Source of the DNA: Embleya scabrispora DSM 41855
GTDB taxonomy: Bacteria; Actinomycetota; Actinomycetes; Streptomycetales; Streptomycetaceae
Direction: 5' to 3'
DNA length: 64,000 bases
Assembly (NCBI RefSeq): GCF_000372745.1
Contig: NZ_KB889695.1
Coordinates: 1 to 64,000 of the forward strand
Of the stretch, positions 16,130-57,918 are shown in pieces (positions within the stretch are counted from its first letter, which is position 1; each line of letters opens with the position of its first letter). The position numbers and the translations under genes are program-made. The notes beneath the pieces are model-generated. The model did not search any database. It was not told where the DNA came from and saw nothing but the letters and a program-made list of their open reading frames with translations.

Positions 16130-17149
16130 GTGAGCACGTTCAACACCTCCTCGCCCGTACCCATTGCCTTGCCGGCGGTTGTCCTCACAGGACGAGGCAC
16201 CGCCGCCGTCGGCGGACCCAAGAACTTCGCGAAGTCGATCCAGGAGGGCGTGCGGCTCGCCACGCTCCGCAAGCCGGGGAAGGACGCCGGTAGGCTCACC
16301 AAGCTCTATCCGGCCGGTACCGCGTACCTGTGGGGGGCGACCCCGACGGACCAGACCGGCAACCGGAAGGCCCTCGCACTGGCCACGCGCTCCGCCGGCG
16401 ATCGTGTGCTCTTCTACGCCGAGGGCGAGATCATCGCCCAAGCCACCATCCTGGACTGTTTCGACAACGAGGATCTGGCCACGGAGATCTGGGGCCTCGA
16501 CGCGAAGACCGGCAAGACGTGGAAGCACATCATGGCCCTCACCAACGTCGACGAGTTCGACCCCGGCCTCGATTCTGGGCCCATATTGATACCGCTCATA
16601 GGTCGCCGCGACGTGCGCACGCTCGAGCGACGCACCGCCGTCGAGTTTGCGCGGGTCGCCCACCTCTTGGAACGGGAAGCCGACGATCCCGCGGGTCTCC
16701 TTGTCCCGACGCGGACCGACGCCGGTCACGGCGAGGTCGTACAGACCGTCCGCACCGCGTACAGCGGGACCCGGGTCAAACGCGACACCAAGGTCTCCGC
16801 GCGGGTCAAGGAGATGTACAGCAACGCGTGCCAGGTATGTGGCGACGTCATGTACGCGCTCGACGTTCCGCGAAGCATCGGCGCGCACATCCGCGGCCTC
16901 GGCGCGCCTCACAACGGGCCGGATCACATCTCGAACATCCTGTGCCTGTGCGGCAAGTGCCACGCCGAGTTCGACTGGTGCACCTTCCACATCGCCCGAA
17001 CCCCCACCGGATCACTCGCCGTCTTCGACACGCTCACTCGCGCACGGCGCGGTGATCTGCGTGTCGTCGAAGGCCACGCGATCGACGAGCGATACACGCG
17101 CTACCACCGGGACTGGTGCCTGGACGAAGCCGCTCGGAGGAAGGCCTGA
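16130..17149 (+). CDS. HNH endonuclease, possible modification-dependent restriction enzyme
   Basis: This 339-aa protein has a C-terminal HNH fold: CQVCG (C234, C237), GAHIRGLGAPHNGPDHISN, then LCLCGKCHAEFD. This layout (paired Cys, AHIR-LG-PHNGPD, N, CxxCH) is that of HNH domains in ScoMcrA-type restriction enzymes that cut modified DNA. The N-terminal 190 residues contain no obvious SRA domain. GDRVLFYAEGEIIAQATILDCFD suggests a small beta-barrel reader (PUA/EVE-like), which is inference. GTG 16130 follows AAGGGG. The gene stands alone between CRISPR array C and a helicase-nuclease gene, a plausible defence context. Confidence 0.7.
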   Translation: MSTFNTSSPVPIALPAVVLTGRGTAAVGGPKNFAKSIQEGVRLATLRKPGKDAGRLTKLYPAGTAYLWGATPTDQTGNRKALALATRSAGDRVLFYAEGEIIAQATILDCFDNEDLATEIWGLDAKTGKTWKHIMALTNVDEFDPGLDSGPILIPLIGRRDVRTLERRTAVEFARVAHLLEREADDPAGLLVPTRTDAGHGEVVQTVRTAYSGTRVKRDTKVSARVKEMYSNACQVCGDVMYALDVPRSIGAHIRGLGAPHNGPDHISNILCLCGKCHAEFDWCTFHIARTPTGSLAVFDTLTRARRGDLRVVEGHAIDERYTRYHRDWCLDEAARRKA

Positions 17150-20055: not shown

Positions 20056-20267
20056 AAAGTTCCCACGCGAGTGGGGGTGAGCCGCTGTGCCCGGAGCACG
20101 CCGACAAGATCCGGCGGAAGTCCCCACGCGAGTGGGGGTGAGCCGTGGTTCATCGGCTTCTCGTGCTTCCTGATCAAGAAGTCCCCACGCGAGTGGGGGG
20201 TGAGCCGAGTGGAGGAGGCGGCGACGGCACCCGTCTCGCGAAGTCCCCACGCGAGTGGGGTGAGCCG
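20056..20267 (+). CRISPR. CRISPR array D (4 repeats)
   Basis: Repeats start at 20056, 20117, 20178 and 20240, with 32-nt spacers between. The first repeat, next to the leader, has two changes (AAAGTTCCC). The third has an extra G (30 nt) and the fourth has lost one G (28 nt), so the G-run of the stem is slipping. The consensus is the GCGAGT form shared with arrays A, B and E. Confidence 0.95.
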
Positions 20268-20537
20268 GTTCGGGCGCTGTGCCTGGAGTACGCGTTGGGA
20301 AGCTGCGTGGTCTCCACCCAGCGGCTGTTGGCGGTGGGGTAGGTACTGGTGCGTCAGGGGGTTCCCCGGGCTGGAAGCGTCGTCGACGGCGTCGTCTCGC
20401 GCCGATCGTCAGGTCTACCTGATACGGGCCGCGTCGACCCCACCGCCCCAATCCGGCCGGAGAAGCGCTGGGAATCCAACTGCGGTGATCACTGGGAGTC
20501 TTGATAGGGTCACGGAGTCGATCCACGCGGGGGCGCC

Positions 20538-21973: not shown

Positions 21974-22393
21974 GTGGACGCTATTCCGATCCACGGCGTG
22001 AACACGCCACAGTTGCCCCCGCCCGTCGACGCGCCCGAACTCCTGAAGGTGTTCGAGGTGTTGGGGCTCCGGTTCAGCACCGGTCCTGCCGCGGGCAAGC
22101 AGGAAAATCTGGTCCTGAGCCTGTCCCACGGGTTGATCGGCGCCGCCGAGCAGCACGCCATGCGCGCGGAACAGGCGGCCCGGGCGGTCGGGACGACGAT
22201 CGAGGACATCGGCACGGCCACCGGCCAGGCGTTCGAGGCGGCCGGGTGTCGAAGCGCCGGCGACGACATCGCGTTGTTGTCGTGGCTGGCCCAGCGTCAG
22301 GCCCAGGCCGTCGGTCAGGTCAACGCGACCAACGAACCGGACGAGTTGACCGGGTACCGGCCGCTACGGGCCAGGCGCCCCGAACGGCCATGA
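21974..22393 (+). CDS. hypothetical protein, 139 aa
   Basis: The GTG start begins MDAIPIHGVNTPQLPPPVDA, followed by PELLKVFEVLGLRF. The middle is a helical, Ala-rich region (EQHAMRAEQAARAVGTTIED and so on). Third-position G/C bias is strong, so it is probably a real gene. The size and central helices recall ESX/WXG-like small proteins, but no WXG motif is seen. No ribosome-binding site is obvious. No function is assigned. Confidence 0.5.
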   Translation: MDAIPIHGVNTPQLPPPVDAPELLKVFEVLGLRFSTGPAAGKQENLVLSLSHGLIGAAEQHAMRAEQAARAVGTTIEDIGTATGQAFEAAGCRSAGDDIALLSWLAQRQAQAVGQVNATNEPDELTGYRPLRARRPERP

Positions 22394-22464
22394 CGGGGAG
22401 CGGCCGGTCGGCGGTCGTGCGCGTGAAGCCCGCCGCGTCGGAAGAGGGTGTGCGATCCCCGCGT

Positions 22465-23520
22465 TCAGCCGGGCGTGCTCACCGGGACCGCGAACGAACC
22501 GGAGAACGGCTCGTCGGTCATCGGGTCCGGGATCGGGACCGTCGTGCCGGTGCGTGCGGCTTCGGCGGTGGCGTGGGCGGTCAGGACGATCCGCAGGGCG
22601 CCGCGCAGGTCGCCGGGGTGTCGGTCGCGTCCGGTGATCATGTCGCGGAAGGCTTCGTGTTCGGCGACCAGGGGTTCCTTCTTGGGGATGGCGTATCGGG
22701 TGACGTCGCCTTCGGTGACGCCGCGGAACGCGCTGAGGGCCTCCCACTCGTGGGGGGTTCGGCCGTTGGCCCAGTAGGTGAGGTCGGCGGTGAGGGTGTC
22801 GGCGACCAGGCATCCGTGGTCGCCGGTGACGATGGTGGTGCGGCTCTTCATCGGGGAGATCCAGTTGACCTGGTGGTGGGTGATGGTGCCGTCGTCGAGT
22901 TGGCCGAGGGCGGCGAGGAGGTCTTCGTGGGGGCGGCCGCTGCGGTGGGCGGTGCGGGCGGCGATCGAGGTGTAGGGGTGGCCGGTGACCCAGGCGGTGA
23001 GGTCGAGGTCGTGGGTGGCGAGGTCGTGGATGACGCCGACGTCGGTGATCCGGGCGGGGTAGGGGCCGGCGCGACGGGTGCCGACCTCGAAGACGTCGCC
23101 GAGTTGGCCGTCCTCCAGGCGCGCGCGGAGCGCGATGAGCGCCGGGTTGAAGCGTTCGATGTAGCCGACGCGGGCCGGCACCCCGGCCGTGTGGAAGGCG
23201 TTGACGATGCGGCGGGCCGCGCGCGGGGTCGCGGCGAGCGGCTTCTCGACGAGGGTCGGGATACCCGCGGCGGCAAGGCGGACCGCGAGGGCTTCGTGCA
23301 GGAGCGTGGGGCAGGCCAGGACCGCGTAGTCGACGCCCAGGTTCGTGAGGGCGTCGAGGTCCGCGAAGAGGGGGATGCCCTCGGCGGCGCGGTGGAGGTC
23401 GCCGGCGGGGTCGACGGCCGCGACGAGGTCGACGCCGTCGAGCCTGCGGAGCACGCGGGCGTGCAGGCGGCCCATGCGTCCGAGGCCGACGACGGCGGCG
23501 CGCAGGGTGTGCCTGGTCAT
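22465..23520 (-). CDS. Gfo/Idh/MocA-family dehydrogenase
   Basis: This 351-aa NAD(P)-dependent oxidoreductase has an N-terminal Rossmann fold with RAAVVGLGRMGRLHARVL (about 7-24), the family's VEKPLA (about 91-96) and a C-terminal substrate domain. The GVIHDLATHDLDL stretch contains the catalytic His region. Paired with a DegT aminotransferase and a hexapeptide N-acyltransferase, it matches the WbpB/WlbA type that oxidises C-3 of UDP-GlcNAc uronic acid. A different hexose or cyclitol substrate is equally possible. ATGA overlap with the upstream aminotransferase shows one operon. It is the last gene of the minus-strand cluster. Confidence 0.83.
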   Translation of the reverse strand: MTRHTLRAAVVGLGRMGRLHARVLRRLDGVDLVAAVDPAGDLHRAAEGIPLFADLDALTNLGVDYAVLACPTLLHEALAVRLAAAGIPTLVEKPLAATPRAARRIVNAFHTAGVPARVGYIERFNPALIALRARLEDGQLGDVFEVGTRRAGPYPARITDVGVIHDLATHDLDLTAWVTGHPYTSIAARTAHRSGRPHEDLLAALGQLDDGTITHHQVNWISPMKSRTTIVTGDHGCLVADTLTADLTYWANGRTPHEWEALSAFRGVTEGDVTRYAIPKKEPLVAEHEAFRDMITGRDRHPGDLRGALRIVLTAHATAEAARTGTTVPIPDPMTDEPFSGSFAVPVSTPG

Positions 23521-24626
23521 GTCGTGGCCTTCTTTCCCCGGGCCAGGGCGGTGACGGCGCCGGCGATGCGGTCGAGATCGGATTCGCTCAGGTGCGGGTG
23601 GACGGGCAGGGACAAAACCTCGGCGGCCGCGCGGTCGCTGTGCGGGAGATCGAGGGCGGCCCGGTAGGCGGGCGAGCGGTGGAGCGGGACGGGGTAGTGC
23701 ACCGCGTTGCCGATCCCGAGCGCGGACAGCTCCTCGGCGAACTCGTCGCGGGACAGGGCCGCTTCGCGCACGCGGATCGTGTACTGGTGGCGGACGTGTC
23801 GTGCGCCGGGCGCGGTCCACGTGGTGATGATGCCGGGGACGTCGGCGAGGGCGGCGTCGAGGCGGTCCGCGTTGCGGCGGCGGGCCGTCGTCCGCTCGTC
23901 CAGGCGGCGGAGTTGGCTGCGGGCGATGGCGGCGTTGACGTCGCTCATCCGGGCGTTGGTGCCCACGCGTTCGTGCCGGTAGCGCTCCTGCGCGCCGTGG
24001 TTGCGCAGCAGCCGCAGGGCGCGGGCGAGTTCGGGGTCGGCGGTGGCGACGAGGCCACCTTCGACGGCCTGCATGTTCTTGGTCGGGTAGAAGCTGAACG
24101 CGGCGGCGTCGCCGAAGCCGCCGACCGGGCGTCCGTCGAGGACGGCGGCGTGGGCCTGAGCGGCGTCTTCGACCAGGGCCAGGCCGCGCCGGCGGGCGAG
24201 CGGCACCAGGTCGTGCATGGCGGCAGGGTGTCCGTACAGGTGGACGGGCAGCAGCGCGGCGGTACGCGGCCCGATCGCGGCCGCCGCGGAGGCGGCGTCG
24301 AGGCAGAAGGTGCGCGGGTCGATGTCGGCGAAGACGCAGTCGGCGCCGGTCAGGCGTACGGCCGCGGCGGTGCCGGCGAAGGTGAACGCGGGCAGGACGA
24401 CCTCGTCGCCGGTGCCGATGCCCAGCGCGAGGAGGCTCAGCCACAGCGCAGAGGTACCGGAGTTGACGGCGACGCACTCGCGGCCGTCGACCAGGGTGGC
24501 GAACTCGACCTCGAAAGCGGCGACTTCGGGGCCCTGGACGAGCCGGCAGCCGCGCAGGACGCGCAGGGCTGCGGTGATGTCCGCCTCGTCCAGTGTCGCG
24601 TGGGCGAGCGGGATGGGAGAGGTCAC
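23517..24626 (-). CDS. DegT/DnrJ/EryC1/StrS aminotransferase
   Basis: This 369-aa PLP enzyme transfers an amino group to a keto-sugar or similar ketone. Family motifs: VAVNSGTSALWLSLLALG (about 53-70), GDEVVLPAFTFAGTA, LVEDAAQAHAA (D154 region) and the PLP-lysine site FSFYPTKNMQAVEGG (K183). GTG 24626 is preceded by GGAAGGGA. The stop overlaps the dehydrogenase start. The next-door dehydrogenase would supply the 3-keto substrate and the ACP-acyltransferase could acylate the new amine. Confidence 0.87.
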   Translation of the reverse strand: MTSPIPLAHATLDEADITAALRVLRGCRLVQGPEVAAFEVEFATLVDGRECVAVNSGTSALWLSLLALGIGTGDEVVLPAFTFAGTAAAVRLTGADCVFADIDPRTFCLDAASAAAAIGPRTAALLPVHLYGHPAAMHDLVPLARRRGLALVEDAAQAHAAVLDGRPVGGFGDAAAFSFYPTKNMQAVEGGLVATADPELARALRLLRNHGAQERYRHERVGTNARMSDVNAAIARSQLRRLDERTTARRRNADRLDAALADVPGIITTWTAPGARHVRHQYTIRVREAALSRDEFAEELSALGIGNAVHYPVPLHRSPAYRAALDLPHSDRAAAEVLSLPVHPHLSESDLDRIAGAVTALARGKKATT

Positions 24627-24679
24627 GGGGTGGTCCCTTCCGTGTCGGCGCCGGCCGGCACGGGGAACCCGGTGCACGG

Positions 24680-25189
24680 TCAGCGTTGGGGTGTCGCCGG
24701 ATCCGATCCGTGGTGCAGGTAGGCGGTGGTGCCGCGGGCCAGCGCGTTCGCGCAGGCCCGCAGTCGGCGGGCCATGTGGGGGGCCATCAGGACGTCCCAC
24801 TCGGCCGGTTCGGCGAGGTGCCAGGCCATGAGCTCACCGGCCGCGAGGTGGACGCGCGTCTGGGCGTCGGCTCGGGTGAGGGTGCCGCCGTCGAAGAGGT
24901 AGTTCGCCAGCGCGGGCCGACCGTCGGGTTGCGGGGGGACCCAGTCGACGACCAGGAGCCGGCCGGGGGCCAGGTCGAGGCCGAGTTCCTCCTTGATCTC
25001 GCGGTGCGCGGTGTCCCACGGGTATTCGCCGGCGTCCATGGCGCCGCCGGGGATCTCCCAGCGGCCGTCGCCGTAGGAGGGTTCGACGAGCAGGATCCGC
25101 CCGTCTTCGTCGTGGAGGATCGCGCCGGCGCCGCCGATGTGCTTGGGCAGGCCGGCGTAGTACTCGGCGGGGGGAAGGGGATGGCTCAT
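24680..25189 (-). CDS. NUDIX hydrolase
   Basis: This 169-aa protein has a full Nudix box GGAMDAGEYPWDTAHREIKEELGLD (fitting Gx5Ex7REUxEExGU) at about residues 46-70. It would cleave a nucleoside-diphosphate-linked compound and could release a sugar phosphate from a nucleotide or clean up side products of the cluster. ATG 25189 lies after GGGGATGGCTC-type sequence without a clear ribosome-binding site. The gene is spaced 53 bp from the aminotransferase and 84 bp from the acyltransferase, so it is probably in the same transcript. Confidence 0.8.
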   Translation of the reverse strand: MSHPLPPAEYYAGLPKHIGGAGAILHDEDGRILLVEPSYGDGRWEIPGGAMDAGEYPWDTAHREIKEELGLDLAPGRLLVVDWVPPQPDGRPALANYLFDGGTLTRADAQTRVHLAAGELMAWHLAEPAEWDVLMAPHMARRLRACANALARGTTAYLHHGSDPATPQR

Positions 25190-25273
25190 GCCGCGTGAGG
25201 TTAGTGCCGTGCCGCCGTGGGTTTGCGGCGGCACGGGCGCTTGCGACAGGGGTGTGACAAAGCGGTGCGATCA

Positions 25274-26131
25274 TCACCCGGCCGGGTGGTCCTCGATCAG
25301 GGTGTCGTCCCGGAGCCGGTGGGAGCGCGGGCAGGCGGGGCATCGCAGGGATTCGTCCAGGGTTCGGCCGCAGCGGCATACCCAGCCGCAGCGGCGGGCG
25401 GGGTTGCCCGCGACCAGGGCGTGGGCGGGGACATCGCGCACGACGACCGCGCCGATCGCGACCAGGGCGTGATCGCCGACGCGGATCCCGGGTGCGAGGA
25501 CGGCGCCGGCGCCGATCGTGGCGCCTTGCCCGACGGTGACGGGCGCCCGGGTGAAGTCGGACGCGGTCTTGCGGTGCCCGTCCGGGGTGGTGGCCCGTGG
25601 GGCGGGGTCTTCCAGCAGAAGGGCGCCGGGGCAGATCATCGCCTCGTCGCCCACCGTCGCGCCGAAGATGTTCGCGTAGTTCCCGACCTTGACCCGATCG
25701 CCCAGGGTGCTGCCGGTGCCGACGAAGGCGCCCTTGCCGAGGGTGCAGTCGGCGCCGACGCTCGCGCCCGGGGCGATCTGGGCCTGGTGCCACATCCTGG
25801 TCGCCTCGCCCACGGTGGCTCCGGGGTCGGCCCAACCGGCGTTCACGGGTGCGGTGTTCGTCACGGGCGTGCTCCTTTCGGTCGCGAGGTGGTCGATCAG
25901 GTCGCGCAGGGTGCCGGCGTTCGCCAGGACGTGGTCGGGGACGTCTCGGCCGGTGGCGTTCTCGATCGCGACGGCGAGCGTCACTCGGTCCAGCGAATCG
26001 AAGCCGAGGTCGGCGAACGAGTCGGTCACGGTCACCGGGGTCACCGGGGTCACCGGGGTCACCGGGGTCGACGGGCGCATCGCGCGGACCGCGTCCAGGA
26101 CGAGCACGGCAACGCGTTCGTTCGCGGTCAC
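25274..26131 (-). CDS. acyl carrier protein fused to hexapeptide-repeat acyltransferase
   Basis: This is a 285-aa fusion. Residues 1-86 are an acyl carrier domain: FADLGFDSLDRVTLAVAIEN with D45-S46-L47 as the phosphopantetheine site. Residues 95-245 form a left-handed beta-helix acyltransferase with hexapeptide repeats (ATVGEATRMWHQ, APGASVGADCTLGKGAFVGT, TIGAGAVLAPGIRVGDHALV). The C-terminus has a four-Cys zinc-ribbon-like tail (CRCG...CPACP), as in WbpD-type sugar N-acyltransferases. The fusion suggests an acyl group loaded on its own carrier and passed to an amine. The ACP holds a tandem TPV repeat. GTG overlaps the upstream stop (GTGA). Confidence 0.8.
   Translation of the reverse strand: MTANERVAVLVLDAVRAMRPSTPVTPVTPVTPVTVTDSFADLGFDSLDRVTLAVAIENATGRDVPDHVLANAGTLRDLIDHLATERSTPVTNTAPVNAGWADPGATVGEATRMWHQAQIAPGASVGADCTLGKGAFVGTGSTLGDRVKVGNYANIFGATVGDEAMICPGALLLEDPAPRATTPDGHRKTASDFTRAPVTVGQGATIGAGAVLAPGIRVGDHALVAIGAVVVRDVPAHALVAGNPARRCGWVCRCGRTLDESLRCPACPRSHRLRDDTLIEDHPAG
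26031..26075. repeat. 9-bp tandem repeat inside the ACP coding region
   Basis: Four perfect copies of GTCACCGGG (26031-26066) and a fifth with two changes (26067-26075). On the coding strand each unit adds TPV to the loop before the FADLGFDSL motif. Copy number changes would keep the reading frame. Confidence 0.9.
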
Positions 26132-27527
26132 CGGCTCTTCTCCAGTCGCCGGGCGAGCGCGTACAGGGAGGGCACCGCCTCCACGACGGGCGCCGCGCGC
26201 CACAGGCGCCGCACGGCCGCCCCGCCGGCGGAGTCCTCCTCGCCGAGCGCGCGCAGGGACAAAGCGGCGAACGCGGCGAACTCCCGGGCTGCGGCGGGCG
26301 GCAGGTTGGCGCCGCCTTGGAGGAGGTGCTCGACGAGGGCCTCGCCCGCGCCCTCGTCCAGGACCTGCCCGATGGTCGGGGCGGGCATGGGACGCAGGGC
26401 CCGGTACGGGTGCGCGTCCAGGGTGCCGGGGTGGTGATCTCGTCCGCGATCAGCGCGGCGATCCGCGGGGCGAGGAGGATCCCGCAGCGGTAGGTCGCGG
26501 TCGCCAGCAGCAGCGACGCCTCGCGCGTGGGGCCGATCAGCGGGAGGTGATCCAGCGTGTACGGGCGCAGCCCCACGCGCGGCGACAGGAGTTCGGCCGA
26601 CCCCAGCGCGGGATCGAGCAGGCCGGCGGCGTCCCCGGCCAGGACCGCGAGCTCGTCGAGCGTCGCCGGCCGGGAGGGATCCGGCGTGGTGGTGAGCCGG
26701 TTCGTCCCGCCCAGGTACACGCACCCGTCGTCGCGCGGCACCAGGTGGACCCCGCACGCGAACGCCGCGTTCGGCGTACGCACCACACGGTCCGCAGAAA
26801 CGGCGGGCGCGTTCAGGGTCACCCCCACCCCGCGCCCGGCCAGGACCGGCGGCACCCCCAGGTCCCGGCCCGCCCCGGGCAGCAGCGACGCCGTCCCGGC
26901 GCCGGCCGCCAACACGATCCGGGACGCGCGAGCCCGGGTACCGTCCGCGCACGCGACCACGCCGACGCGCACCGAGACCGCCGCGGTGTCGAGCCACGCG
27001 CATCGGCGGTGACCGGAGACCGCGGCGGTGAGCGCGCGCATGAGCGCCCCGCTGTCGACGCGGGCCTCGGTCGGCAGCCACAACGCGCCCGCCGACGAGA
27101 CGGGCACCTCAAGTCCCGGCACCTGACGGGCGTCGTGTTCCTCCACGGGATGCCCGGCACCGCGCGCCACCGCGGCGATGGCCGCCAGGTGCGCGGCCCG
27201 ACCCGCCGGCGCCAGGACCCACGTGCCGGACACGGCGGGAACCTCGACGCCGCCGGCGGCCGCGATCCGCGCGAGCCAAGCCCCGTACATCCCGTGTGCC
27301 AGGACCCGCTCGCCGGTCTCGACCCGCGTGCGCTCGGCCGGGTGTCCGGGCTCGACCTCGGAGAACGTGGACAACATCGCGCCGGCCGCGCGGGTCGCCT
27401 GACCCACGTGGTCCCCGCTACGCGGGCCCACGACCGTCACCGCGATCCCGCGCTCCAGCAGGGCGAATGCCACGGCGAGCCCGACGACGCCCGTGCCCAC
27501 GACCACCACATCGCCGCGCTCAACCAT
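26128..27527 (-). pseudogene. FAD-dependent (DAO/ThiO-like) oxidoreductase with one-base frameshift
   Basis: The N-terminus DVVVVGTGVVGLAVAFALLE is a dinucleotide-binding GxGxxG site; REASLLLATATYRCGILLAP and IAALIADEITTP are the C-terminal FAD contacts of D-amino-acid/glycine oxidase-like enzymes. At 26428-26431 a run of four G (C on the coding strand) is one base short: the frame changes from DEITTP to GTLDAHPYRALRPMPAPTIG and continues to ...ARRLEKSR at 26128. With one base added the protein is 466 aa, including a helical C-terminal domain of about 90 residues. It overlaps the dioxygenase end by 8 bp. It could oxidise an amino-acid or amine precursor of the cluster, if functional. Confidence 0.75.
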
Positions 27528-28443
27528 CGGAGCCCCCCACGGCCGTCGCCTGCGCGGGGGCGAGGGCGTCGAACGCGGCCTTGGCCTGCATGAGCATTCG
27601 CCTGCCGCCGTCGGGCAGCCCGCTCTGGTCGCCCAGCGGCGCGCGACCGTGCGCGGCCCGCCGCTGATCGCAGACGAGCAGTTGCCCCCGGCCGAGCGCG
27701 ACCGCGCGGGTGTGCCGCGAAAGCGCCGCGTCGAAGCGCGTCAACGCGCCCGTGTCGCCCGCGTTGCGCGGGTCGTCGAGCATCTTGGCCGCCCACCGGA
27801 TCCACGAAGGGTCCTCGCCCGCGTCGTCCAGGACGGGGAACGGCATCCGCGGCGCCCCGACACCGAGCAGGCCCTCGGCGCGTCCCTCGAAGTACACCGG
27901 ACGTCGCAACTCCCGCGCGTCCGCCTCGGAGATCTCCCGAGCGGCGGCCCGCAGGTCGCCCACCAATGACGCCCCGCCGCCCGCCGGGTCCGGCCGCAGC
28001 ACCAACAGCGCCGTGTAATCGGGCACCCGCTCGACGTTGGGCGCGTCCACGTGCAACCGGTTGTGACCGGTCCCGCCGAAGGAGCCCGGGTCCTTGTCGG
28101 CGGACGACTCCCCGCCGATCCACAGCCCCCGACCGCCCGGAACGGACAGGAACGGGCGGCCGATCGCGGCCAGCACTCCGGCGGCGGCCCGCTCCAACTC
28201 CTCGTCGCCCAGCCGGGCGGGCAACGCCAGCACCGCCCAGCCCGGCGCCCCGCCACGGGCCACCGACCGGGACAACCGGGCGACCACCGCCCGGCCCTCC
28301 CCTCCGGCGAGCACCCTCCGGGCCCTCTCGACGTTGCCGGCATCCCACAGATGCCCGTCCATGTCGGCCGTGCACGCGGCCACCAGCTTTCCGGCCAGCA
28401 CGTGGGGTACCACCACGCGCACCGGGTCCTCGAACCGAGTCAT
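27520..28443 (-). CDS. TauD/clavaminate-synthase-like 2-oxoglutarate/Fe(II) dioxygenase
   Basis: This 307-aa protein is probably a non-haem iron hydroxylase. The metal triad fits HNRLHVDAPN (H131, D133) and the distal AAHGRAPL (H265), with R267 placed to bind 2-oxoglutarate. LALPARLGDEELERAAAGVLAAIGRP and DYTALLVLRPDPAGGGASLV are typical of the family. ATG 28443 has a good GGAGGGG site. It is the first gene of the minus-strand cluster, divergent from the XRE regulator at 28608, and likely sets a hydroxyl or another oxidation on the product. Confidence 0.72.
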   Translation of the reverse strand: MTRFEDPVRVVVPHVLAGKLVAACTADMDGHLWDAGNVERARRVLAGGEGRAVVARLSRSVARGGAPGWAVLALPARLGDEELERAAAGVLAAIGRPFLSVPGGRGLWIGGESSADKDPGSFGGTGHNRLHVDAPNVERVPDYTALLVLRPDPAGGGASLVGDLRAAAREISEADARELRRPVYFEGRAEGLLGVGAPRMPFPVLDDAGEDPSWIRWAAKMLDDPRNAGDTGALTRFDAALSRHTRAVALGRGQLLVCDQRRAAHGRAPLGDQSGLPDGGRRMLMQAKAAFDALAPAQATAVGGSDG

Positions 28444-28471
28444 CGTCAATTCCCCTCCATCGGCGGCGAAT

Positions 28472-28489
28472 CCCGGCGCAAGCGCCGGG
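28472..28489. promoter_or_regulatory. palindrome in divergent promoter region
   Basis: CCCGGCGC-AA-GCGCCGGG is an 8-bp perfect dyad between the dioxygenase start (28443) and the divergent XRE gene (28608). It could be an operator for that regulator or a leader hairpin of the dioxygenase mRNA. Confidence 0.35.
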
Positions 28490-28607
28490 TGGACAAGACC
28501 CAGCAAAAGGCCAAAATCCGTGCCCGAGTTGCACAGATGTCGCACAGCCCGGGCCGCTAGCTTGGGGAGTGGGGCGGGCCGCCCTACCGTCGGGAAAGGT
28601 GAGGGCG

Positions 28608-29829
28608 ATGCGGGACTTCCTGGAGGACCTGATGGGTGATCAGCCGCTCGGCACGGGAAACAACATCGCCGTCCTACGCAAGGCCGCCGGCCTCACCCAA
28701 GGGCAACTGGCCAACCGGGCGGCGATCAGCAAGAGCATGCTGTCCAAGGTCGAGGTTGGCGACCGCACCGCGAGCCACGCGCTGATCGCGGCCGTCGCCC
28801 GAGCCCTGCGCGTGCCCGTCCAACGCATCCACGGCCAGCCCTACCGCGACGAACCCACCGTCCCCGTGCGCATCGACGCGCTCCGCGACGCCCTGCGCGC
28901 CTGGGACCTGCCCACCGACGACACCACGCCCCGCCCCCTCGCCGACCTCGCGGCGGATGTCCGCGCCGCGCAGACCGACCGCCGCGACGGCCACTACGTC
29001 CGCCTGGCCGCGAACCTGCCCGCGCTCCTGGAGGAACTCGCCGCCGCCGCCCACGCCGCCACCGACGAGAACACCCGCCGCGCCCTGTTCGCGCTGTTGA
29101 CGACCGGCTACTACTGCGCCCACGGACTCGCCTCCCGTCTGGGATACGGCGACCTCGCCGACGCCATCGACCCCAAACTCGCCTGGGCCGCGACCCGCGC
29201 CCACGACCCCCTCGCCGTCGCCCTCGCCGACTGGACCCGCAGCGCGTCCTTCCAGGGCCGCCGGCGACTACGACCACGGCCTGCAACTCCTGGACCGGGC
29301 ACGAACAACCCTCGAAGGCGGCCCCGCCGACCGGGCCCACCCCGCGACGGTCACCGTCCTCGGCAGCCTGCATCTGCGCGCCGTCACCCTGGCCTCGCGC
29401 GCCAAGGACGCAGGCGAGACGACCCGGCAACTCGCCGCCGCCCAGCGCCTCGCCGACGGCTTCACCACCGAACAGCGCCACTACCAACTCACGTTCGGGC
29501 CCGCGAACTGCCGTATCCACCACGTCGCGGCCGAGGTCGAACTCGGTCGCCCCGCGGCCGCCGCGCACATCGCCGCCGGGTTCGAGCCACCCCCCGAGAT
29601 CGCCCCCACCCGGGCCGGCCATCACTGGATCGACCTCGCCCGCGCCCACACCGACACCGGGAACGTCCGGGCCGCGCTCGACACCCTCTACCGGGCCCGC
29701 AAGACGGCTCCGGAACAGACCCGCTTCCACCCCATGGTCCGCGAGACCGCCCGCGTCCTCATCAGCCTGCACCGCAGGTCCAACCCCGACCTGACCCGCC
29801 TCGCCACCTGGCTCGGACTCACCCCCTGA
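28608..29829 (+). pseudogene. XRE-family regulator with one-base frameshift
   Basis: The N-terminal HTH (NIAVLRKAAGLTQGQLANRA, ISKSMLSKVEVGDRTAS, about residues 18-55) is followed by a TPR-like helical domain of the type in Streptomyces cluster-associated regulators. After ALADWTRSASFQ (about 29253) one extra G moves the frame. The sense resumes as AGDYDHGLQLLDRARTTLEG and ends ...LTRLATWLGLTP at 29829. Corrected length is 406 aa. ATG 28608 follows GGGAAAGG. Divergent orientation points to control of the minus-strand cluster. It may be a pseudogene or a sequence error. Confidence 0.72.
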
Positions 29830-29881
29830 ACCGAACCGCGGTCGGGGCAACTCCCCGCCCCGGAGCGTCAGGTCGAGTGGG

Positions 29882-30657
29882 TCACCTTCGTGGTGATCGT
29901 GGCCGGCGGCGGTTGTGTTCGTCGTTCTCGGCGGTCACCCGCGCGGACGTCTCCTCGCCCAGTCGGACGTAGATGCCCAGGGTGGCGAGGTCTTGTGGCG
30001 GCTCTTGGCCTGGAGTTCGGCCCCGTGCGGCCCTTCGCGGCCAAATGTCGCAGACCGGAGTGCCGGAGCTGGTGCAGCGTCCAGCCCTTGCCGTGCGGGT
30101 CGTGGAGGGCGGAGGCGGTCTTGAACAGGTGCTCGGCGCGGGGGTAGGACAGGCGTCCGCGGCCGGTGGCGGGATCGATGTCGGCCAGGGCGGGCGCCCG
30201 CCGGCCCGAGGTGGGCGCGCGGCGCTCGGCGAGGAAGACCGGACCGGTGGCGCGGCCCCGGAGCAGGCGCGGCAGCAGCCGCGCGGTGGGGGTCTCCCAG
30301 TGGACGTACGCGAGGTTGCCGCCCTTCTCGACGACGTGGCCCGGCGGAACTCCGGGTCCAGGTCCGGCACGTCGAGTTGCAGGACCTCCTCCGCGCGGGC
30401 GCACGTCTCGTAGAGGAAGCGCCAGAACACCCGTTCGCGCAACGGGTTGCGGTCGTCGGCGAACAGCCGTTCCAGCCCGGCGCGGGGGATCGCCCGGCCA
30501 TGACGGCCTCGACCTGCTCGCAGGACAGGTCGCCGGTGGGGAATGCGTCGCCGAGGAGGTCGCGGAGCCGGGCGAGGGTGCCCGCGTAGGTCGAGCGGGT
30601 GGTGGGCACCTCGCGGAAACGATCGAGGAAGTTGTCGACCGCGACGACCAGCGGCAC
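29882..30657 (-). pseudogene. tyrosine recombinase (integrase), broken by several frameshifts
   Basis: Sense sequence jumps among three frames: MPLVVAVDNFLDRFREVPTT, then VFWRFLYETCARAEEVLQLD (first catalytic Arg), then [20 protein letters not shown] to WTLHQLRHSGLRHLAAKG (H-x-x-R), then AELQAKSRHK, then DLATLGIYVRLGEETSARVT with the Tyr. All catalytic boxes are still recognisable, so decay is recent, yet at least four indels are needed. It is clearly related to the intact integrase at 55491 (compare [26 protein letters not shown]). It lies at the left border of the secretion locus. Confidence 0.75.
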
Positions 30658-30659
30658 AC

Positions 30660-31793
30660 CGCTCCACCAAACTCAGAGCACCTCAGTCCGGCAGTGCTGC
30701 CGCGGTGTGGCAGCCGTAGCCCGGCACCCGACCAACGTGACCGGCCTGTTTTTGGCGCGACCTTGGTCGTCGGGCGGATGACTCGGCGGATTTCGGCTCG
30801 GAGTCGCGCCCTGGTGTGTTCGATCCCCGTTCCGTCCCGCAGAAAAGCGCCGGCCGGAGACCTGATGGCGTAAGGCGAGCGAGCAGGAACGGGGGGACCG
30901 AAGGGACCGAGCCCCCCATTCCTGTGACCGCGCGCGTGTGCGCGGGCGAGAGGTGCTTGTCATGGACGACTCATAAGCGGAAACTCGGTCCCTTCAGTCC
31001 CTGCCAGTCGATGGCGAGTATGTTGACCTGCGCTTTTTCATAGCGCGCCCAGCGACAGCCAGAGCGACGAACGGCACTTCGACGCCCCTGCGGCAGCCCC
31101 GCAGATGGTCGCCCTTCAGGTTCACCACACGCTGCCGTGCTCGCCCGACACGGCGGGCCACCATCCCGACGCAGCACGCGCTTCGTGCTCCGGGATCAGC
31201 TGCAGGGTGTGCTTGATGTCGGCGTTGCGGCGGACTTGGGCGCGTCAGTTGCGACAGGGCTCGCGGTAGAGGTCCGCGTGGACCTCGTCGCGGATTTCGA
31301 TGCGGGCTTGGCGTACTTCGGGGCCGGCTGCGCAGTGCCGGGTGTGGGTGTGGCCGACGGCTTGGACGAGGTCGAGGCGCCGCAGCCCGCGCAGGCCGCC
31401 GAGGGCCTGGTCGCCGGTGAGGACTTCCTTCGGCCTGGTAGGTGGCGCGGCGCAGGGCATTCTCCGATTCCGCAACGCCGCATGGTGGTTCTCGGTGGCG
31501 AGACCGGCCGTTCCGACCGCCGATCTGCCGTGGTCTTCTCCCATCCCCATCCCCATCCCCATCCCCAACCCCCACACCCGCGCCCGCGCCCGCGCGCGTT
31601 CGGTGCGCGATCGATTCCCTTCGCTTCAACCGCGCCCGCCCGAGACACCCTCGCCGGTCCCTCGCCTCGACGTTGCCTGCGCGTCGCCCGGAGCCCTTTC
31701 CCTTCCCTGACCTGCGTTGATGTCGGAGCGGGCCAGACAACGGGCAAGGCCCCGCGGCCAACGTTCTCGGCATCGGCTACGGGAGGAGCAGCG
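30660..31793. other. region upstream of the secretion locus, with a possible decayed minus-strand ORF
   Basis: About 1.1 kb without a confident gene. On the minus strand (about 31190-31500) protein-like text VLTGDQALGGLRGLRRLDLV, then QAVGHTHTRHCAAGPEVRQA, then RIEIRDEVHADLYREP is followed by a frame break and RRNADIKHTLQLIPEHEARA, suggesting a degraded gene of unknown type. A run of CCCCAT units lies at 31540-31570. Confidence 0.4.
31540..31576. repeat. CCCCAT tandem repeat (G-quadruplex-prone on minus strand)
   Basis: Four to five units of CCCCAT, then CCCCAACCCCCACACCC. The complementary strand has six closely spaced runs of at least three G. It lies about 220 bp before the first gene of the secretion locus. 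Confidence 0.8.
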
Positions 31794-49481: not shown

Positions 49482-52466
49482 ATGCGTCGGGAGTGGTCCT
49501 CCGAGGACGTGGTGGCGTGCTGGACGCCGGTAGGCAGTGACTGGGACCTGGTCGCAAACAAGTCCGGTCCGACCCGACTCGGCTTCGTGCTGATGCTGAA
49601 GTTCTTCGAGCTGGAAGGCCGGTTTCCCCAGTTCGTGGAGGAGTTCCCTCAGGCTGCGGTCGACTATGTGGCCGACGTCGTCAAGGTGTCGGCGGAGGAC
49701 TTGGCGAAGTACGAGCTGTCGTCCCGCTCGGCGAAGGGGCACCGTACGCAGATCCGCGAGGCCCTCGGGTTCCGCCCCGCGACCCGTGCGGACGAGGAAC
49801 GGCTGACCGCCTGGCTCGCCGATGACGTCTGCCCGGTGGAACTGGTGGAGGACCGGTTGCGCGAGGCCCTGCTCGTGCAGTGCCGCAGTGACCGCATCGA
49901 GCCCCCGGGCCGTGTCGAGCGGATCGTGGCCACGGCACGGGCACGGGCGGACCGCGTCTTCTGCGCGCAGACCGTCGCGCGTCTGGGCGAGGTGTGCGCC
50001 GACCGCCTCCTGGCGCTGGTCGTGGAGGGCAACGAGGACGGCACGGCGCTGCTGGCCTCGCTGAAGCGGGACCCGGGCGCGGTGGGGCTGGACTCGCTGC
50101 TGACGGAGATCGTCAAGCTGACCGCCGTACGGCAACTCGGTCTGCCGGACGGGACGTTCGCGAACTGCTCGGAGAAGCTGGTGACCGCGTGGCGGGCGCG
50201 GGCGATCAAGATGTACCCCTCGGACTTCCGGGATGCGGGCGAGGACGTACGGACCACCCTGCTGGCCGCCCTGTGCGCGTCCCGCCAGGCGGAGATCACC
50301 GACGCCCTGGTGGAACTGCTCGTCGCCCTGGTCCACAAGATCAACGCCCGTGCCGAGCGGCGGGTCGAGCGACAGCTGACGGCGGAGCTGAAGAAGGTAC
50401 GGGGCAAGGAGGGCATCCTCTTCAAGCTCGCCGACGCGGCGGTAGGACGGCCCGAGGGGACCGTACGAGCCGTGCTGTACCCGGTGGTCGGGGAGAAGAC
50501 GCTGCGCGACCTGATCGCCGAGGCGAAGGCGAACGAGAAGGCGTTCAAGGCGAAGGTCCGCACCACACTGCGGTCCTCCTACAGCTCGTACTACCGGCAG
50601 ATGCTGCCGCCGCTGCTGCGGACACTGGGCTTCAGGTGCAACAACACCGCCTACCGGCCCGTGATGGACGCGCTCGTACTGCTGGAGAAGTACGCCGGCG
50701 TCGACGGCAAGACCCGCTTCTACGACGCGTCCGACGCGGTGCCGATCGGCGGTGTCGTACGCAAGGACTGGCGCGAGGCGGTCGTCGACGAAAAGGGCCG
50801 GACCGAGCGCATCCCGTACGAGCTGTGCGTGCTGGTGGCGGTGCGGGACGCGATCAGGCGCCGTGAGATCTACGTCGAGGGTGCGGCCCGGTGGTGCGAC
50901 CCGGAGGACGACTTGCCCGGTGACTTCGAGTCCGCCCGTACCGTGCACTACGCCGCGATCCGCCAGCCCGAGGACCCCGGGGAGTTCGTCGCCGGGCTGA
51001 AGCAGCGGATGACGGACTCTCTGGACCGGCTGTCGGCGGCGCTCGCGGACGGCAGTGCGGGCGGGGTGAAGGTCACCACCCGCAAGGGCGAGCCGTGGAT
51101 CACCGTGCCGAAGCTGGAGCCGCTGGACGAGCCCACCGGCCTGGCGGCCCTGAAGGACGAGGTCGTACAACGGTGGGGCGTGCTCGATCTCCTGGACGTG
51201 CTGAAGAACGCCGACTTCCTGACCGGCTTCACCGACGAGTTCTCCTCGGTCGCCGCGTACGAGCGCATCGACCGCGCCACCCTCCAGCGGCGCCTGCTGC
51301 TCGCGCTGTTCGCCCTGGGCACGAACATGGGCATCCGGGCGATCGTGGCGACCGGCGAGCACGGCGAGAGCGAGGCCGCGCTGCGGCACGTGCGCCGGCA
51401 CTTCATCACCGTCGACAACCTGCGCGCCGCAGTGACCAAGATGGTCAACGGCACGTTCGCCGCACGGGACGCCGCATGGTGGGGGCAGGGCACCGCGTGC
51501 GCTTCGGACTCGAAGAAGTTCGGGTCCTGGTCCTCGAATTTCATGACCGAGTACCACGCCCGCTACGGCGGCAACGGCGTGATGATCTACTGGCACGTGG
51601 AGCGGAAGAACGTCTGCATCTACTCCCAGCTCAAGAGCTGTTCGTCGTCCGAGGTTGCGGCGATGATCGAGGGCCTGCTGCGGCACTGCACGGACGCCGA
51701 GATCGAGTCGAACTACGTCGACACCCACGGCGCGAGCGTCGTCGGATTCGCCTTCACCGAGCTGCTCAGCTTCCGCCTGCTGCCCCGGCTGAAGAACATC
51801 GGCAGCATCCGCCTGTACCGCCCGGACGACACCCCGCCCGGCTGGCCCGCGCTCGGCGGCTCCCTGACCCGTCCGATCCGCTGGGACCTGATCGAGCAGC
51901 AGTACGACCAGACGGTCAAGTACGCCACCGCCCTGCGCCTGGGGACGGCGGAGGCTGAGCAGGTGCTGCGGCGCTTCACCCGCGGCGGCCCCAAGCACCC
52001 CACCTACGCCGCGCTCGAAGAACTCGGCCGCGCCGTACGCACCATCTTCGCCTGCGACTACCTGGCCAGCCCCGCCCTGCGCCGTGAGATCCACGGCGGC
52101 CTCCAGGTCGTTGAGAACTGGAACTCGGCGAACACCGTGCTCCACTACGGCAAGGACGGTGCCCTGACCGGCCCGGACAGGGAGCACGCCGAGACGTCGA
52201 TGCTCGCGCTACACCTGCTCCAGTCCAGCCTCGTGCACGTCAACACGCTGCTGCTCCAGCAGGTCCTGGCCGAGCCGAAGTGGGCGAAGAAGCTTTCGGA
52301 CGAGGACCGACGCGGCCTGACCGCGCTGTTCTGGTCCAACGTCAACCCGTACGGCACCTTCCGTCTGGACATGGACAAGCGGCTCAACCTCGGGGCGGTC
52401 GCCGCCGTGCCCCGCCCCCGAACACCGGCGGACACCAGCGCCCGATCGACCACGGGGACACGATGA
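49482..52466 (+). CDS. tnpA: Tn3-family transposase TnpA
   Basis: This is a 994-aa full-length Tn3 transposase (family about 950-1010 aa). The N-terminal DUF4158-type region ([20 protein letters not shown]) is followed by the large DDE domain from about residue 590. The first Asp is in [13 protein letters not shown] (about 678), the second in [13 protein letters not shown] (about 746), and the family end has [19 protein letters not shown] 49482 follows GGAGGGGGAG. It binds the 37-bp ends and forms cointegrates that the resolvase at 54082 would separate. It overlaps the next small gene by 4 bp. Confidence 0.93.
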
Positions 52467-55490: not shown

Positions 55491-56480
55491 ATGCGAGGGG
55501 GCCGGGTGGCGGAACTCGTGGCGCTGCCGGTTGCGGCCGGGCCGACGGTGCGGGCGGCGGCGGACGCGTTCCTCGACGCGCAGCCGAACCCGAACACTGC
55601 CCGTGCGTACACCACCGCCGTCGGCAAGGTCGCCGAACATCTCGGTGACGCCCGGCCGCTTGCGTCGGTCGCCGACGACGAGGTCGGCCAGGCCCTCGAA
55701 CTTCAGTGGGGCGGCGCAGCGGTCAACACGTGGAACGCGCGGCGCGCGGCGGTGCTGTCCTGGCTGGGCTGGTGCCACGTGCGCGGGTACGCAGCGCCGG
55801 CGGTGCCTGCGTGGGCCAAGCGCCTCGCACCGCCGGACTCGGTCACGCCGGTGCGCTCCAAGACTGCGGTCGACCGGCTGATCGCGCGGCGCGAGGTCGG
55901 GCTGCGGGAGAAGACGCTCTACCAGATGCTGTACGAGACCGCCGCGCGCGCCGAGGAAATCCTCGGGTTGAACATCGAAGACCTGGACCTCGCCCAGCGA
56001 CGCGCGCCGGTCAAAGCCAAGGGCGCCGCCACGCGCCGACGTGGGTCGGCCGCCCGCGAGGACGCGGTGCGCGAATGGGTGTACTTGGATGCAGGCACCG
56101 CGCGGCTCCTGCCGCGCCTGCTCAAGGGGCGAACGCGCGGGCCGGTGTTCACCACCCACCGCAGGCCCGCGCCGGGCAAGGTCGTGGGTCTGCGGGACGT
56201 GTGCCCGGACACCGGGATGGCGAGACTGTCGTACGGCCAGGCACGCGCGCTGCTGGACCGGCATACCGCCCTGGCCGGGTCGGGAACCGGGTGGGACCTG
56301 CACGAGTTCCGGCACAGCGCGCTCACTCACCTCGGCCGCACGCCAGGCGTGAACCTGTTGCTGCTGATGGCCAAGTCGAGGCATCGCAAGGCCGATGGCC
56401 TGCGTCTCTACTTCCACCCCACCGGCGAGGACGTCGCCGCGCTCACCGCGCATCTCGCTCCCGGTGACGCCCGCCGCTGA
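55491..56480 (+). CDS. tyrosine recombinase / integrase
   Basis: This is a 329-aa phage-type integrase. The N-terminal SAM-like domain ([20 protein letters not shown]) is followed by the catalytic domain with [20 protein letters not shown] (first Arg), the box [12 protein letters not shown] (H-x-x-R) and [16 protein letters not shown] (catalytic Tyr). ATG 55491 or GTG 55506 could start it. It belongs to the same subfamily as the broken integrase at 29882-30657. No linked excisionase is seen. The nearby TTATCTGTG repeats may be its sites. Confidence 0.85.
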
Positions 56481-56500
56481 AGCTGCTCACGTCATCGGGT

Positions 56501-57577
56501 TCAGGACGCTGGCTCACTCCAGCGGTAGAGCGTCTCGCTCGTGCTGTCGTAGGTCAGCCACGTCCCATCGCCGAGCGGGCGCACATAGCTGCCGTTGGCG
56601 CCGGTGGGGTACGTCGGCGTCCCACGTATTTCGAGGGTCCGGCCGTCCAGGAGCCAGTGTCGGACTGCTCGTTCCGAGTCCTCGTCTGCGTCGACCGTCG
56701 TGGCGATGACGGTGCCGCCGTCGACGAAGCCGCATCCGTAGTCCCACCACGCCGGGTCCTTGCCATCGGCGGCCTCGGGCGCTCCGGTGGCGAGGACGGT
56801 GCCGTCCAGCATGTGAAGTCGCACGTCGGTTCCGTAGTGCTCGACCGTCAGGAAGCCCGCGTGGTCCGGATGGACGTCCGTCAGGATGCGGTCCATTCCG
56901 TCGTTCAGATCCCAGCTGGTCAGCTTCTCGCCGTCCCAGCGCGCCCAGTAGAGCAGGATGCCGTCCTGGCCCATACCGATGCACAGGCCGACGTGGATGC
57001 CGTCCGGGTGGGACACGTGATGCGAGCCGGCAGCGGCACTGTCGAGCCGCAGTTGGGCCAGCTCCCGTCCGTCCCGGGCATCCAGGACGACCCAACACTC
57101 GTGCCAGTCGTCCCAATCTCGGTCATGGACGCCGACCACGACATGCGCCCACACGAGCCGACCGTCGTCGGAGACGCGGCAGGAGCCGTGTTCGAGGCCG
57201 CGGCACACCTCCTGCTCGTCCCCCGTGTGGGAGTGACCGAACGCCGGTCCCCAGCAACTGTGCCGGTACTCCCACAGCGTCTCGCCGGCGCTGCTGACAG
57301 CCCGCACCGCGCGTTGGCCGGAGAACACCGCGAACGCGGCGTCGGGGCTCACCGAGTCGACACCGCGGTCCCACCCCGGCCACGGAACCGGGAAGACCGC
57401 AGTCGGCGCGGTTTCGCCGGTGAAGAGCTCGTCGAGGTCGTAGACCTCCAGCTCGTGCCCGTTCCGGATCAGCGTGCGGCGTGCCCAGCCACTGCGGCTC
57501 TCCAACGCGTAGCCGTTGACCAGGGCGTCACCCCCCGGCAGCCGTACCGAGTCGCGAAGTTGTGCAGTTATCGACAT
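56501..57577 (-). CDS. hypothetical beta-propeller-like protein
   Basis: This is a 358-aa soluble protein without a signal peptide. Repeated short strands with W and D/G turns (SPDAAFAVFSGQRAVRAVSS, DDGRLVWAHVVVGVHDRDWD, YGCGFVDGGTVIATTVDADE, LGDGTWLTYDSTSETLYRWS) suggest a WD40- or quinoprotein-like propeller. Such proteins are common in streptomycetes without known role. It lies between the integrase and the nested Tn3 remains and ends 20 bp from the convergent integrase. Confidence 0.6.
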   Translation of the reverse strand: MSITAQLRDSVRLPGGDALVNGYALESRSGWARRTLIRNGHELEVYDLDELFTGETAPTAVFPVPWPGWDRGVDSVSPDAAFAVFSGQRAVRAVSSAGETLWEYRHSCWGPAFGHSHTGDEQEVCRGLEHGSCRVSDDGRLVWAHVVVGVHDRDWDDWHECWVVLDARDGRELAQLRLDSAAAGSHHVSHPDGIHVGLCIGMGQDGILLYWARWDGEKLTSWDLNDGMDRILTDVHPDHAGFLTVEHYGTDVRLHMLDGTVLATGAPEAADGKDPAWWDYGCGFVDGGTVIATTVDADEDSERAVRHWLLDGRTLEIRGTPTYPTGANGSYVRPLGDGTWLTYDSTSETLYRWSEPAS

Positions 57578-57724
57578 GCGCGAAAGCTAGCGAATCCCAC
57601 TGACGGGTTCGTTGTCGGGCAGATCGGAGCTCCGGTCGGCTCCCACTCGACCCCCGTGTTCAGCACGCCGCAGGCGCGCACCGTGCCCACAATCCGCCGC
57701 CGCGCGGCCTCCCGGAAGGACGTG

Positions 57725-57817
57725 TCATTCGTCGTCGGCCTCGGCGGCGATGCTGTCCCGCAAGGGACGCAGGCCGCCTGGCAGTTCGGGGAGCTTGAAG
57801 GAGTACCGGCCGAGCAT
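57725..57817 (-). pseudogene. Tn3-family transposase, C-terminal piece
   Basis: The minus strand reads MLGRYSFKLPELPGGLRPLR, then DSIAAEADDE and stop. This is the typical C-terminus of the Tn3 transposase family whose preceding piece ends ...SPFVRHHVN at 61195. The Tn554-like element (57818-61194) separates the two pieces. The join is exact: HHVN followed by MLGRYSF. Confidence 0.85.
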
Positions 57818-57918
57818 GTCCTTATCTGGACACCTTCGAGTGGCCGCGGCGGCTGCCTCGTGGCCGCAGGCTCGCCGGGCTCGTTGAGCCGGTCGAGTGA
57901 CGGTTCCGGGAGGCACGG

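Follow-up and report, generated by a model that had tools for sequence, protein, structure and literature searches.

A compact mobile gene island in Embleya scabrispora with a carrier-fused acyltransferase and an Orf1-type enzyme, possibly for an amidine-bearing amino sugar

Gene content of the island

The window analysed in the present study is a stretch of 64,000 nucleotides from Embleya scabrispora DSM 41855 (contig NZ_KB889695.1, positions 1 to 64,000), which forms part of a 64.5 kb contig in an 11.4 Mb genome. It contains an island in which six enzyme genes stand next to a divergent regulator gene of the XRE family. The enzymes are a 2-oxoglutarate (2OG) dioxygenase, a flavin adenine dinucleotide (FAD)-dependent enzyme, a hexapeptide acyltransferase fused to an acyl carrier protein (ACP) domain, a NUDIX hydrolase, a DegT-type aminotransferase and a Gfo-type dehydrogenase. 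Re-reading of the open reading frames (ORFs) and their Pfam matches bore out all six enzyme genes given in an initial annotation of this DNA, each on the minus strand. That annotation left the regulator off its gene list, although the span it described covers the XRE gene. The features are as follows.

22366–29937, strand not applicable: island, homology limits against strain SID3343 (genome G003; blastn of its locus L029 against the window)
22465–23520, minus: Gfo/Idh/MocA dehydrogenase, UDP-GlcNAc 3-dehydrogenase-like (PF01408)
23517–24626, minus: DegT/DnrJ/EryC1/StrS aminotransferase of the nucleoside diphosphate (NDP)-3-ketosugar type, catalytic Lys in SFYPTKN (PF01041, E 3e-115)
24680–25189, minus: NUDIX hydrolase with the complete motif GX5EX7REUXEEXGU (PF00293, motif)
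25190–25273, minus: conserved intergenic element, possible internal promoter (alignment of ten loci)
25274–25864, minus: left-handed beta-helix (hexapeptide) N-acyltransferase domain with a C-terminal CxC...CxxC (PF00132, E 3e-15)
25865–26131, minus: N-terminal ACP domain of the fatty acid synthase (FAS)/polyketide synthase (PKS) type, Ser in DSLD (GFDSLD) (PF00550, E 2e-11)
26128–27527, minus: FAD-dependent Orf1-type N-formimidoyl/N-iminoacetyl synthase, motif RTPNAAFACGVHLVPR (phmmer, alignments, tree)
27520–28443, minus: TauD/clavaminate-synthase-like Fe(II)/2OG dioxygenase (PF02668, E 1e-14; PDB)
28608–29829, plus: divergent XRE-family regulator with a long C-terminal region (PF13560/PF01381)
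29868–30670, minus: ORF bordering the island, perhaps what is left of a decayed tyrosine-recombinase gene (ORF reading, no Pfam match)

The SID3343 locus matched the window at 94.9% over 22366–25654 and 29643–29937, and the last 70 bp or so of the recombinase-remnant ORF fall inside this shared homology. Because the 2OG/FAD, FAD/ACP and DegT/Gfo junctions overlap by 4–8 nt and the other two gaps measure just 84 and 53 nt, the simplest reading is that the six enzyme genes form a single operon and are likely to be co-transcribed. As noted earlier, no adenylation, PKS or glycosyltransferase gene was found within the island or immediately flanking it in the window. Two of the window genes contain a frameshift, the XRE gene near 29.24 kb (two-frame translation) and the FAD gene between 26427 and 26475, where the other islands encode a single 466-aa protein; either errors of sequencing or genuine decay could account for the shifts. 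An 86-aa ORF at 26128–26388 was rejected as a gene of its own, since the other islands encode it as the C-terminal domain, predicted to be helical, of their FAD protein.

The FAD enzyme, the carrier-fused acyltransferase and the sugar core

Orf1 of BD-12 oxidises glycine and uses Cys281 (AFACGLHLVPR) to load an amine with a formimidoyl or iminoacetyl group (PMC10156733). The FAD protein of the island, initially taken for a ThiO-like oxidase, groups instead with such amidine-forming group transferases. In a phmmer search of the PDB, the Orf1 structures of BD-12 were the best matches (E 4e-30), with Bacillus subtilis glycine oxidase at about 1e-8, and in a tree a split with support of 100/100 set the islands and the Orf1-type proteins apart from ThiO. 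The catalytic motif AFACGxHLVPR, present in the islands as RTPNAAFACGxHLVPR, occurred in six of six islands and eight of eight Orf1-type proteins but was absent from all five true ThiO proteins, which were taken from related genomes. Furthermore, C281, H284, R342 and R368 of Orf1 were matched in the islands by alignment (CGxH, GLRPY, TYRCG), and a Glu in (L/V)EHLL aligns with E426, the numbering being inferred. Island FAD proteins also carry a C-terminal region of about 100 aa, absent from ThiO, at the position of the acceptor-binding helical bundle of Orf1. This region is helical in the AlphaFold model, at low confidence, and the PDB profile match ends before it. Since so few sequences could be aligned (three for the FAD protein and two for the ACP-acyltransferase), the AlphaFold models (pLDDT, the predicted local confidence, 47 and 64.5, respectively) were too poor for a fold search.

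The protein also matched the NCBIfam ThiO model TIGR02352 at 147.3 bits, as might be expected of an enzyme that, like ThiO or CmiS2, just oxidises glycine or amino acids and so supplies a glyoxylate imine or peroxide. However, this score lies under the 250.8-bit cut-off, and true ThiO proteins have neither the Cys motif nor the extra C-terminal domain. Such a plain oxidase is thus very improbable, and a ThiO-like role in thiamine synthesis was rejected on the same grounds. The grouping with Orf1 predicts a glycine-derived amidine in the product, of the kind known from kasugamycin and dactimicin, and this kinship is the strongest clue to what the island makes. The island proteins are 32–37% identical to the Orf1-type proteins found in genomes. 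Seven other genomic Orf1-type genes adjoin genes of a secondary-metabolite type (by translations, partly Pfam), aminodeoxychorismate-synthase-like genes among them. One such gene lies directly beside a peptidyl carrier protein (PCP) gene in a nonribosomal peptide synthetase set (L076), and another lies in an aminoglycoside-like set with APH (aminoglycoside phosphotransferase), PIG-L and B12-radical SAM (S-adenosylmethionine) genes (L080). At three loci (L073, L074 and L077) Orf1-type synthases with a C-terminal methyltransferase-like fusion stand beside AONS-like and aminodeoxychorismate-synthase-like genes, a type of biosynthetic gene cluster that we do not recognise.

The acyltransferase had been described as carrying its own carrier domain with a DSL serine, and this was confirmed: the carrier and acyltransferase domains are in frame in every island that retains the 5′ part of the gene, including the copy in genome G002. 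The carrier domain scored 44 bits against PF00550 (cut-off 20.8), and its nearest models are FAS/PKS carriers rather than peptide carriers. The host carries two phosphopantetheinyl transferases, the enzyme type that the initial annotation proposed to look for. Translation of the acyltransferase as a separate protein from an internal GTG at 25864, after AAAGGAG, is possible in the window but was set aside as unneeded, given the in-frame fusion across islands. At 26.02–26.08 kb, a 9 bp unit (ACCCCGGTG-like) is repeated about four times in the ACP coding region, giving the protein a PVTPVTPVT segment that the other islands lack. The acyltransferase domain is closest to WlbB. The TN pair was found in 19 of 19 WbpD/WlbB-like relatives and in WlbB itself, whereas all islands examined have LE, so that LLLEDPAPR replaces LTNDxYPR (TND to LED). 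The Asn of this pair is presumably important for, or catalytic in, WlbB.

The closest PDB relatives of the DegT protein are the NDP-sugar 3-aminotransferases DesV and WbpE, with a single exception named scyllo-inositol transaminase. The proposal that dehydrogenase, aminotransferase and acyltransferase represent the set for 2,3-diamino sugars therefore stands in part: the kinship of DegT to WbpE and DesV, of Gfo to 3-dehydrogenases and of the acyltransferase to WlbB agrees with it, but the acyltransferase lacks the TND motif. Acyltransferase, DegT and Gfo genes recur together, without NUDIX, at seven actinobacterial loci (DegT 51–64% identical; Gfo counted where the fetched stretch extends to it). 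They do so in the order of the island, and in L010 the trio adjoins a glycosyltransferase gene. The island core therefore looks like a re-used surface-sugar trio of the UDP-3-amino-sugar type, a trio common in actinobacteria.

The 2OG protein has clavaminate synthase and a Lys hydroxylase as PDB relatives, and its iron triad (HxD...H) is conserved in the alignment. Family 2 glycosyltransferase and nucleotide-sugar dehydrogenase genes are recurrent neighbours of its relatives of about 36% identity, and two of these loci (L056 and L087) also have a NUDIX gene close to the 2OG relative. The island might yield an amidine-modified sugar nucleotide with which host glycosyltransferases decorate a surface glycan, making it plasmid cargo for surface modification and not for an antibiotic. 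The trio beside a glycosyltransferase gene in L010 and similar loci and the sugar-related neighbours of the distant 2OG relatives agree with this reading, but no glycosyltransferase or flippase gene accompanies the island in any context, the known Orf1-type enzymes belong to antibiotic pathways, and the NUDIX hydrolase would counter the build-up of a sugar nucleotide. We consider a surface glycan unlikely. As a separate observation, a 2OG dioxygenase gene is found repeatedly in Streptomyces as a set with genes for a nucleotide-sugar dehydrogenase and a glycosyltransferase of family 2 (L081–L092).

Distribution, mobility and decay of the island

A search with the 2OG protein revealed the identical gene order (XRE, then 2OG-FAD-ACP-acyltransferase-NUDIX-DegT-Gfo) on linear plasmids of Streptomyces sp. 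NBC_00057, NBC_00724, NBC_00984 and NBC_00053 (L048, L049, L050 and L052), and a search with the ACP-acyltransferase revealed a fifth island of the same order in Streptomyces sp. ADI95-17 (L061). The divergent regulator occupies the same place in all five. The window proteins share 60–75% identity with those of the five islands, the Gfo protein reaching about 75% with its counterpart on the NBC_00057 plasmid. As the same order is kept in all of them, the gene set is not a chance assembly. The flanking genes differ from island to island. The NBC_00053 island has a shortened 2OG gene, and on the plasmid of NBC_01591 the island is cut within the FAD gene. SID3343 belongs to the same GTDB genus as the window strain. 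Its island is surrounded by genes of chromosomal type, including a murA-like one, and carries a deletion of about 4 kb that starts in the regulator and ends in the acyltransferase. At this deletion junction (L029, about 16918–16960), the 3′ region of the regulator meets the acyltransferase in a short shared stretch resembling microhomology. The ACP-acyltransferase was present in one of 393 sampled Streptomyces species, and the island is therefore rare and patchy. It is a discrete, horizontally mobile unit. The rest of the contig holds conjugation-type genes (a TraG/VirD4-like coupling protein, a TrbL-like protein and an M23/SLT hydrolase). A Tn3-family transposase and several tyrosine recombinases were observed at 49482–52466 and 55506–61160 of the window. 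A viral origin was rejected because the 2OG protein has no relatives in IMG/VR and the acyltransferase matches in phages are weak, as was a role in anti-phage defence, for which PADLOC returned just a weak match of the NUDIX protein to the candidate PDC-S07.

The NUDIX gene, the shortest of the set, has a complete motif in the window and in L048, L050, L052 and L061, and in L049 a Ser replaces the Gly of EEXG. The conserved element upstream of it contains TTTGTCAC about 72 nt before the gene and a TA(G/A)CGTC-like sequence near its start, and is kept in a relic island (L111). In eight decayed islands (L028, L029, L059, L060, L106, L111, L134 and L135), the acyltransferase is broken or lost, yet the NUDIX gene has stayed whole; of the same eight, three also keep an undamaged DegT gene and two an undamaged Gfo gene. 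These are the islands recognisable by remains of neighbouring genes, and several were found with the NUDIX query. Orphan copies of the gene show pairwise ratios of nonsynonymous to synonymous substitution (dN/dS) of about 0.2–0.45. This retention suggests a protective role in immunity or detoxification, and Pur7, a NUDIX enzyme of puromycin biosynthesis, is counted among resistance-mediating enzymes (PMC11641026). A strong claim of immunity was tempered, as 390 of the 392 genomes examined in the order hold a close relative and one relic (L051) has no NUDIX gene. The NUDIX gene may instead be an unrelated plasmid gene inside the operon, with a house-cleaning function or one in conjugal immunity, while the other genes form the pathway. 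Its widespread relatives and its orphan plasmid copies are consistent with this, as is the frequency of NUDIX proteins on actinomycete integrative and conjugative elements, where Pif of pSAM2 mediates conjugal immunity (PMC3218068). However, it sits between the acyltransferase and DegT genes, inside the operon, in all islands, and we regard an unrelated gene as rather unlikely.

Several features lie apart from the island. A CRISPR (clustered regularly interspaced short palindromic repeats) array of six repeats with a 61-nt period is located at the contig edge (1–339), and a second array of four repeats at 20057–20268 has the same repeat. Directly after the first array, at 485–2652, an ATP-grasp ribosomal peptide maturase gene (TIGR04187, 349.3 bits, cut-off 350) is followed by a methyltransferase gene (TIGR04188), a pair of the graspetide type of ribosomally synthesised and post-translationally modified peptide. 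At 16250–17149, there is a weak match (34 bits) to a model of restriction endonucleases that bind phosphorothioated DNA.

Proposed pathway and comparison with known systems

Considering the gene set, its conserved order and the key residues, we propose, with a probability of about 0.55, that the island encodes a self-contained mobile pathway for a small amidine-bearing N-acylated amino sugar or amino-sugar nucleotide. The Gfo/Idh enzyme would oxidise C3 of a sugar nucleotide of the UDP-GlcNAc (uridine diphosphate N-acetylglucosamine) type, and DegT would aminate this position. A host phosphopantetheinyl transferase would convert the ACP into its holo form, and FAS-type enzymes of the host or other enzymes acting in trans would load it with the acyl group that the hexapeptide domain would then transfer onto an amine of the sugar. 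Like Orf1 of BD-12, the FAD enzyme would oxidise glycine and use its equivalent of Cys281 to attach a glycine-derived N-formimidoyl or N-iminoacetyl group to an amine of the molecule, which the 2OG enzyme may hydroxylate or otherwise oxidise. NUDIX would cleave a diphosphate, freeing a sugar phosphate or detoxifying a nucleotide-type intermediate or product, and the XRE protein would regulate the gene set. The order of the steps, like the substrates, the acyl group and the activity, is part of this proposal. The product is most likely a small antibiotic or antimetabolite.

Several points weigh against this proposal. The island holds no transporter, clear resistance gene or glycosyltransferase. 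The best curated model for Gfo, NF040723 (UDP-GlcNAc 3-dehydrogenase), gave 169.9 bits against a cut-off of 450. Because two genes are frameshifted, the window copy may be inactive. In the tree, the islands and the Orf1-type proteins form two separate clades with long branches, making the island FAD enzymes a distinct subfamily. Furthermore, F316 of Orf1 is Val in all islands, and E434 is also unconserved. As the F316A variant of Orf1 makes iminoacetyl its major product (PMC10156733), the replacement by Val leads us to guess that the group added may be iminoacetyl, as in kasugamycin, where KasN is proposed to add a glycine imine to a kasugamine precursor (PMC8869731).

The NUDIX gene bears on two further readings. 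The island could be a plasmid module of antibiotic plus immunity, in which the six enzymes, with a new type of ACP-tethered N-acyltransferase, would make a toxic nucleotide of an acylated 2,3-diaminosugar with an amidine cap, or a derivative of it, and the NUDIX gene would be the immunity gene that stays on plasmids once the biosynthetic genes have decayed. We hold this reading to be doubtful, and equally so its likeness to a small-molecule counterpart of a bacteriocin system. Alternatively, Gfo (as Pur10), NUDIX (as Pur7) and DegT (as Pur4) might form a 3′-amino-3′-deoxynucleoside as in puromycin or A201A, its 3′-amine then being acylated and amidinated. Dehydrogenase, aminotransferase and NUDIX genes do co-occur in the clusters for puromycin, A201A and cystocin, whose NUDIX enzyme turns a nucleoside triphosphate into a monophosphate (PMC11641026), and a NUDIX enzyme also tailors in tubercidin biosynthesis (PMC6112128). 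However, the DegT, Gfo and acyltransferase proteins are closest to the sugar-nucleotide trio that lacks NUDIX, and no gene for a Pur3-like phosphatase is present, so that a nucleoside route appears improbable.

The proposed amidine-bearing amino sugar would be of interest for several reasons. Orf1-type enzymes were found characterised just in aminoglycoside and streptothricin pathways, with kasugamycin proposed, and they attract attention for their NOS-bridge chemistry and for drug-like amidines that block aminoglycoside acetylation. The island could be the source of an amidine amino-sugar scaffold, an acyl-ACP N-acyltransferase and perhaps a NUDIX gene for self-resistance, all of them new, and at about 7.5 kb the six-enzyme island is small enough for whole transfer into a laboratory Streptomyces.

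The initial view that the combination does not belong to a recognised pathway holds, as the gene set was not found described in the open-access literature text; its parts do have counterparts. Orf1 of BD-12, which has Fms14 of fortimicin and the proposed KasN as counterparts, shares with the island FAD enzyme the GR2 glycine-oxidase fold, the Cys281 motif and the glycine-binding Arg residues, and the C-terminal region of the island enzyme may correspond to the helical acceptor-binding region of Orf1. Unlike Orf1, the island enzymes form a separate clade with Val at F316 and unconserved acceptor-site residues, and they are encoded with an ACP-acyltransferase, whereas the Orf1 type occurs in aminoglycoside and streptothricin pathways. 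The WbpB-WbpE-WbpD and WlbA-WlbC-WlbB systems use the same families of dehydrogenase, 3-aminotransferase and hexapeptide N-acyltransferase as the island, which differs in the N-terminal ACP of the acyltransferase and in LED for TN(D/V), and has no WbpA-like 6-dehydrogenase and no polysaccharide genes. In lipid A with GlcN3N, LpxA, a hexapeptide acyltransferase, carries out acyl-ACP-dependent N-acylation after GnnA and GnnB. The latter two catalyse 3-oxidation and amination of UDP-GlcNAc (PMC7663294). The three together set a precedent for acyl-ACP N-acylation of a UDP-2,3-diamino sugar. LpxA belongs, however, to another hexapeptide subfamily, works with a separate ACP protein and acts in a pathway without amidine chemistry. 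Compared by description only, Pur10, Pur4 and Pur7 of puromycin bring together a dehydrogenase, an aminotransferase and a NUDIX enzyme, as in the island, but the puromycin pathway acts on a nucleotide substrate and has no known ACP, hexapeptide acyltransferase or amidine synthase. Among these systems, the island is best filed as an amidine-tailored amino-sugar cluster, set apart by its ACP-fused, altered acyltransferase and its compact mobile form.

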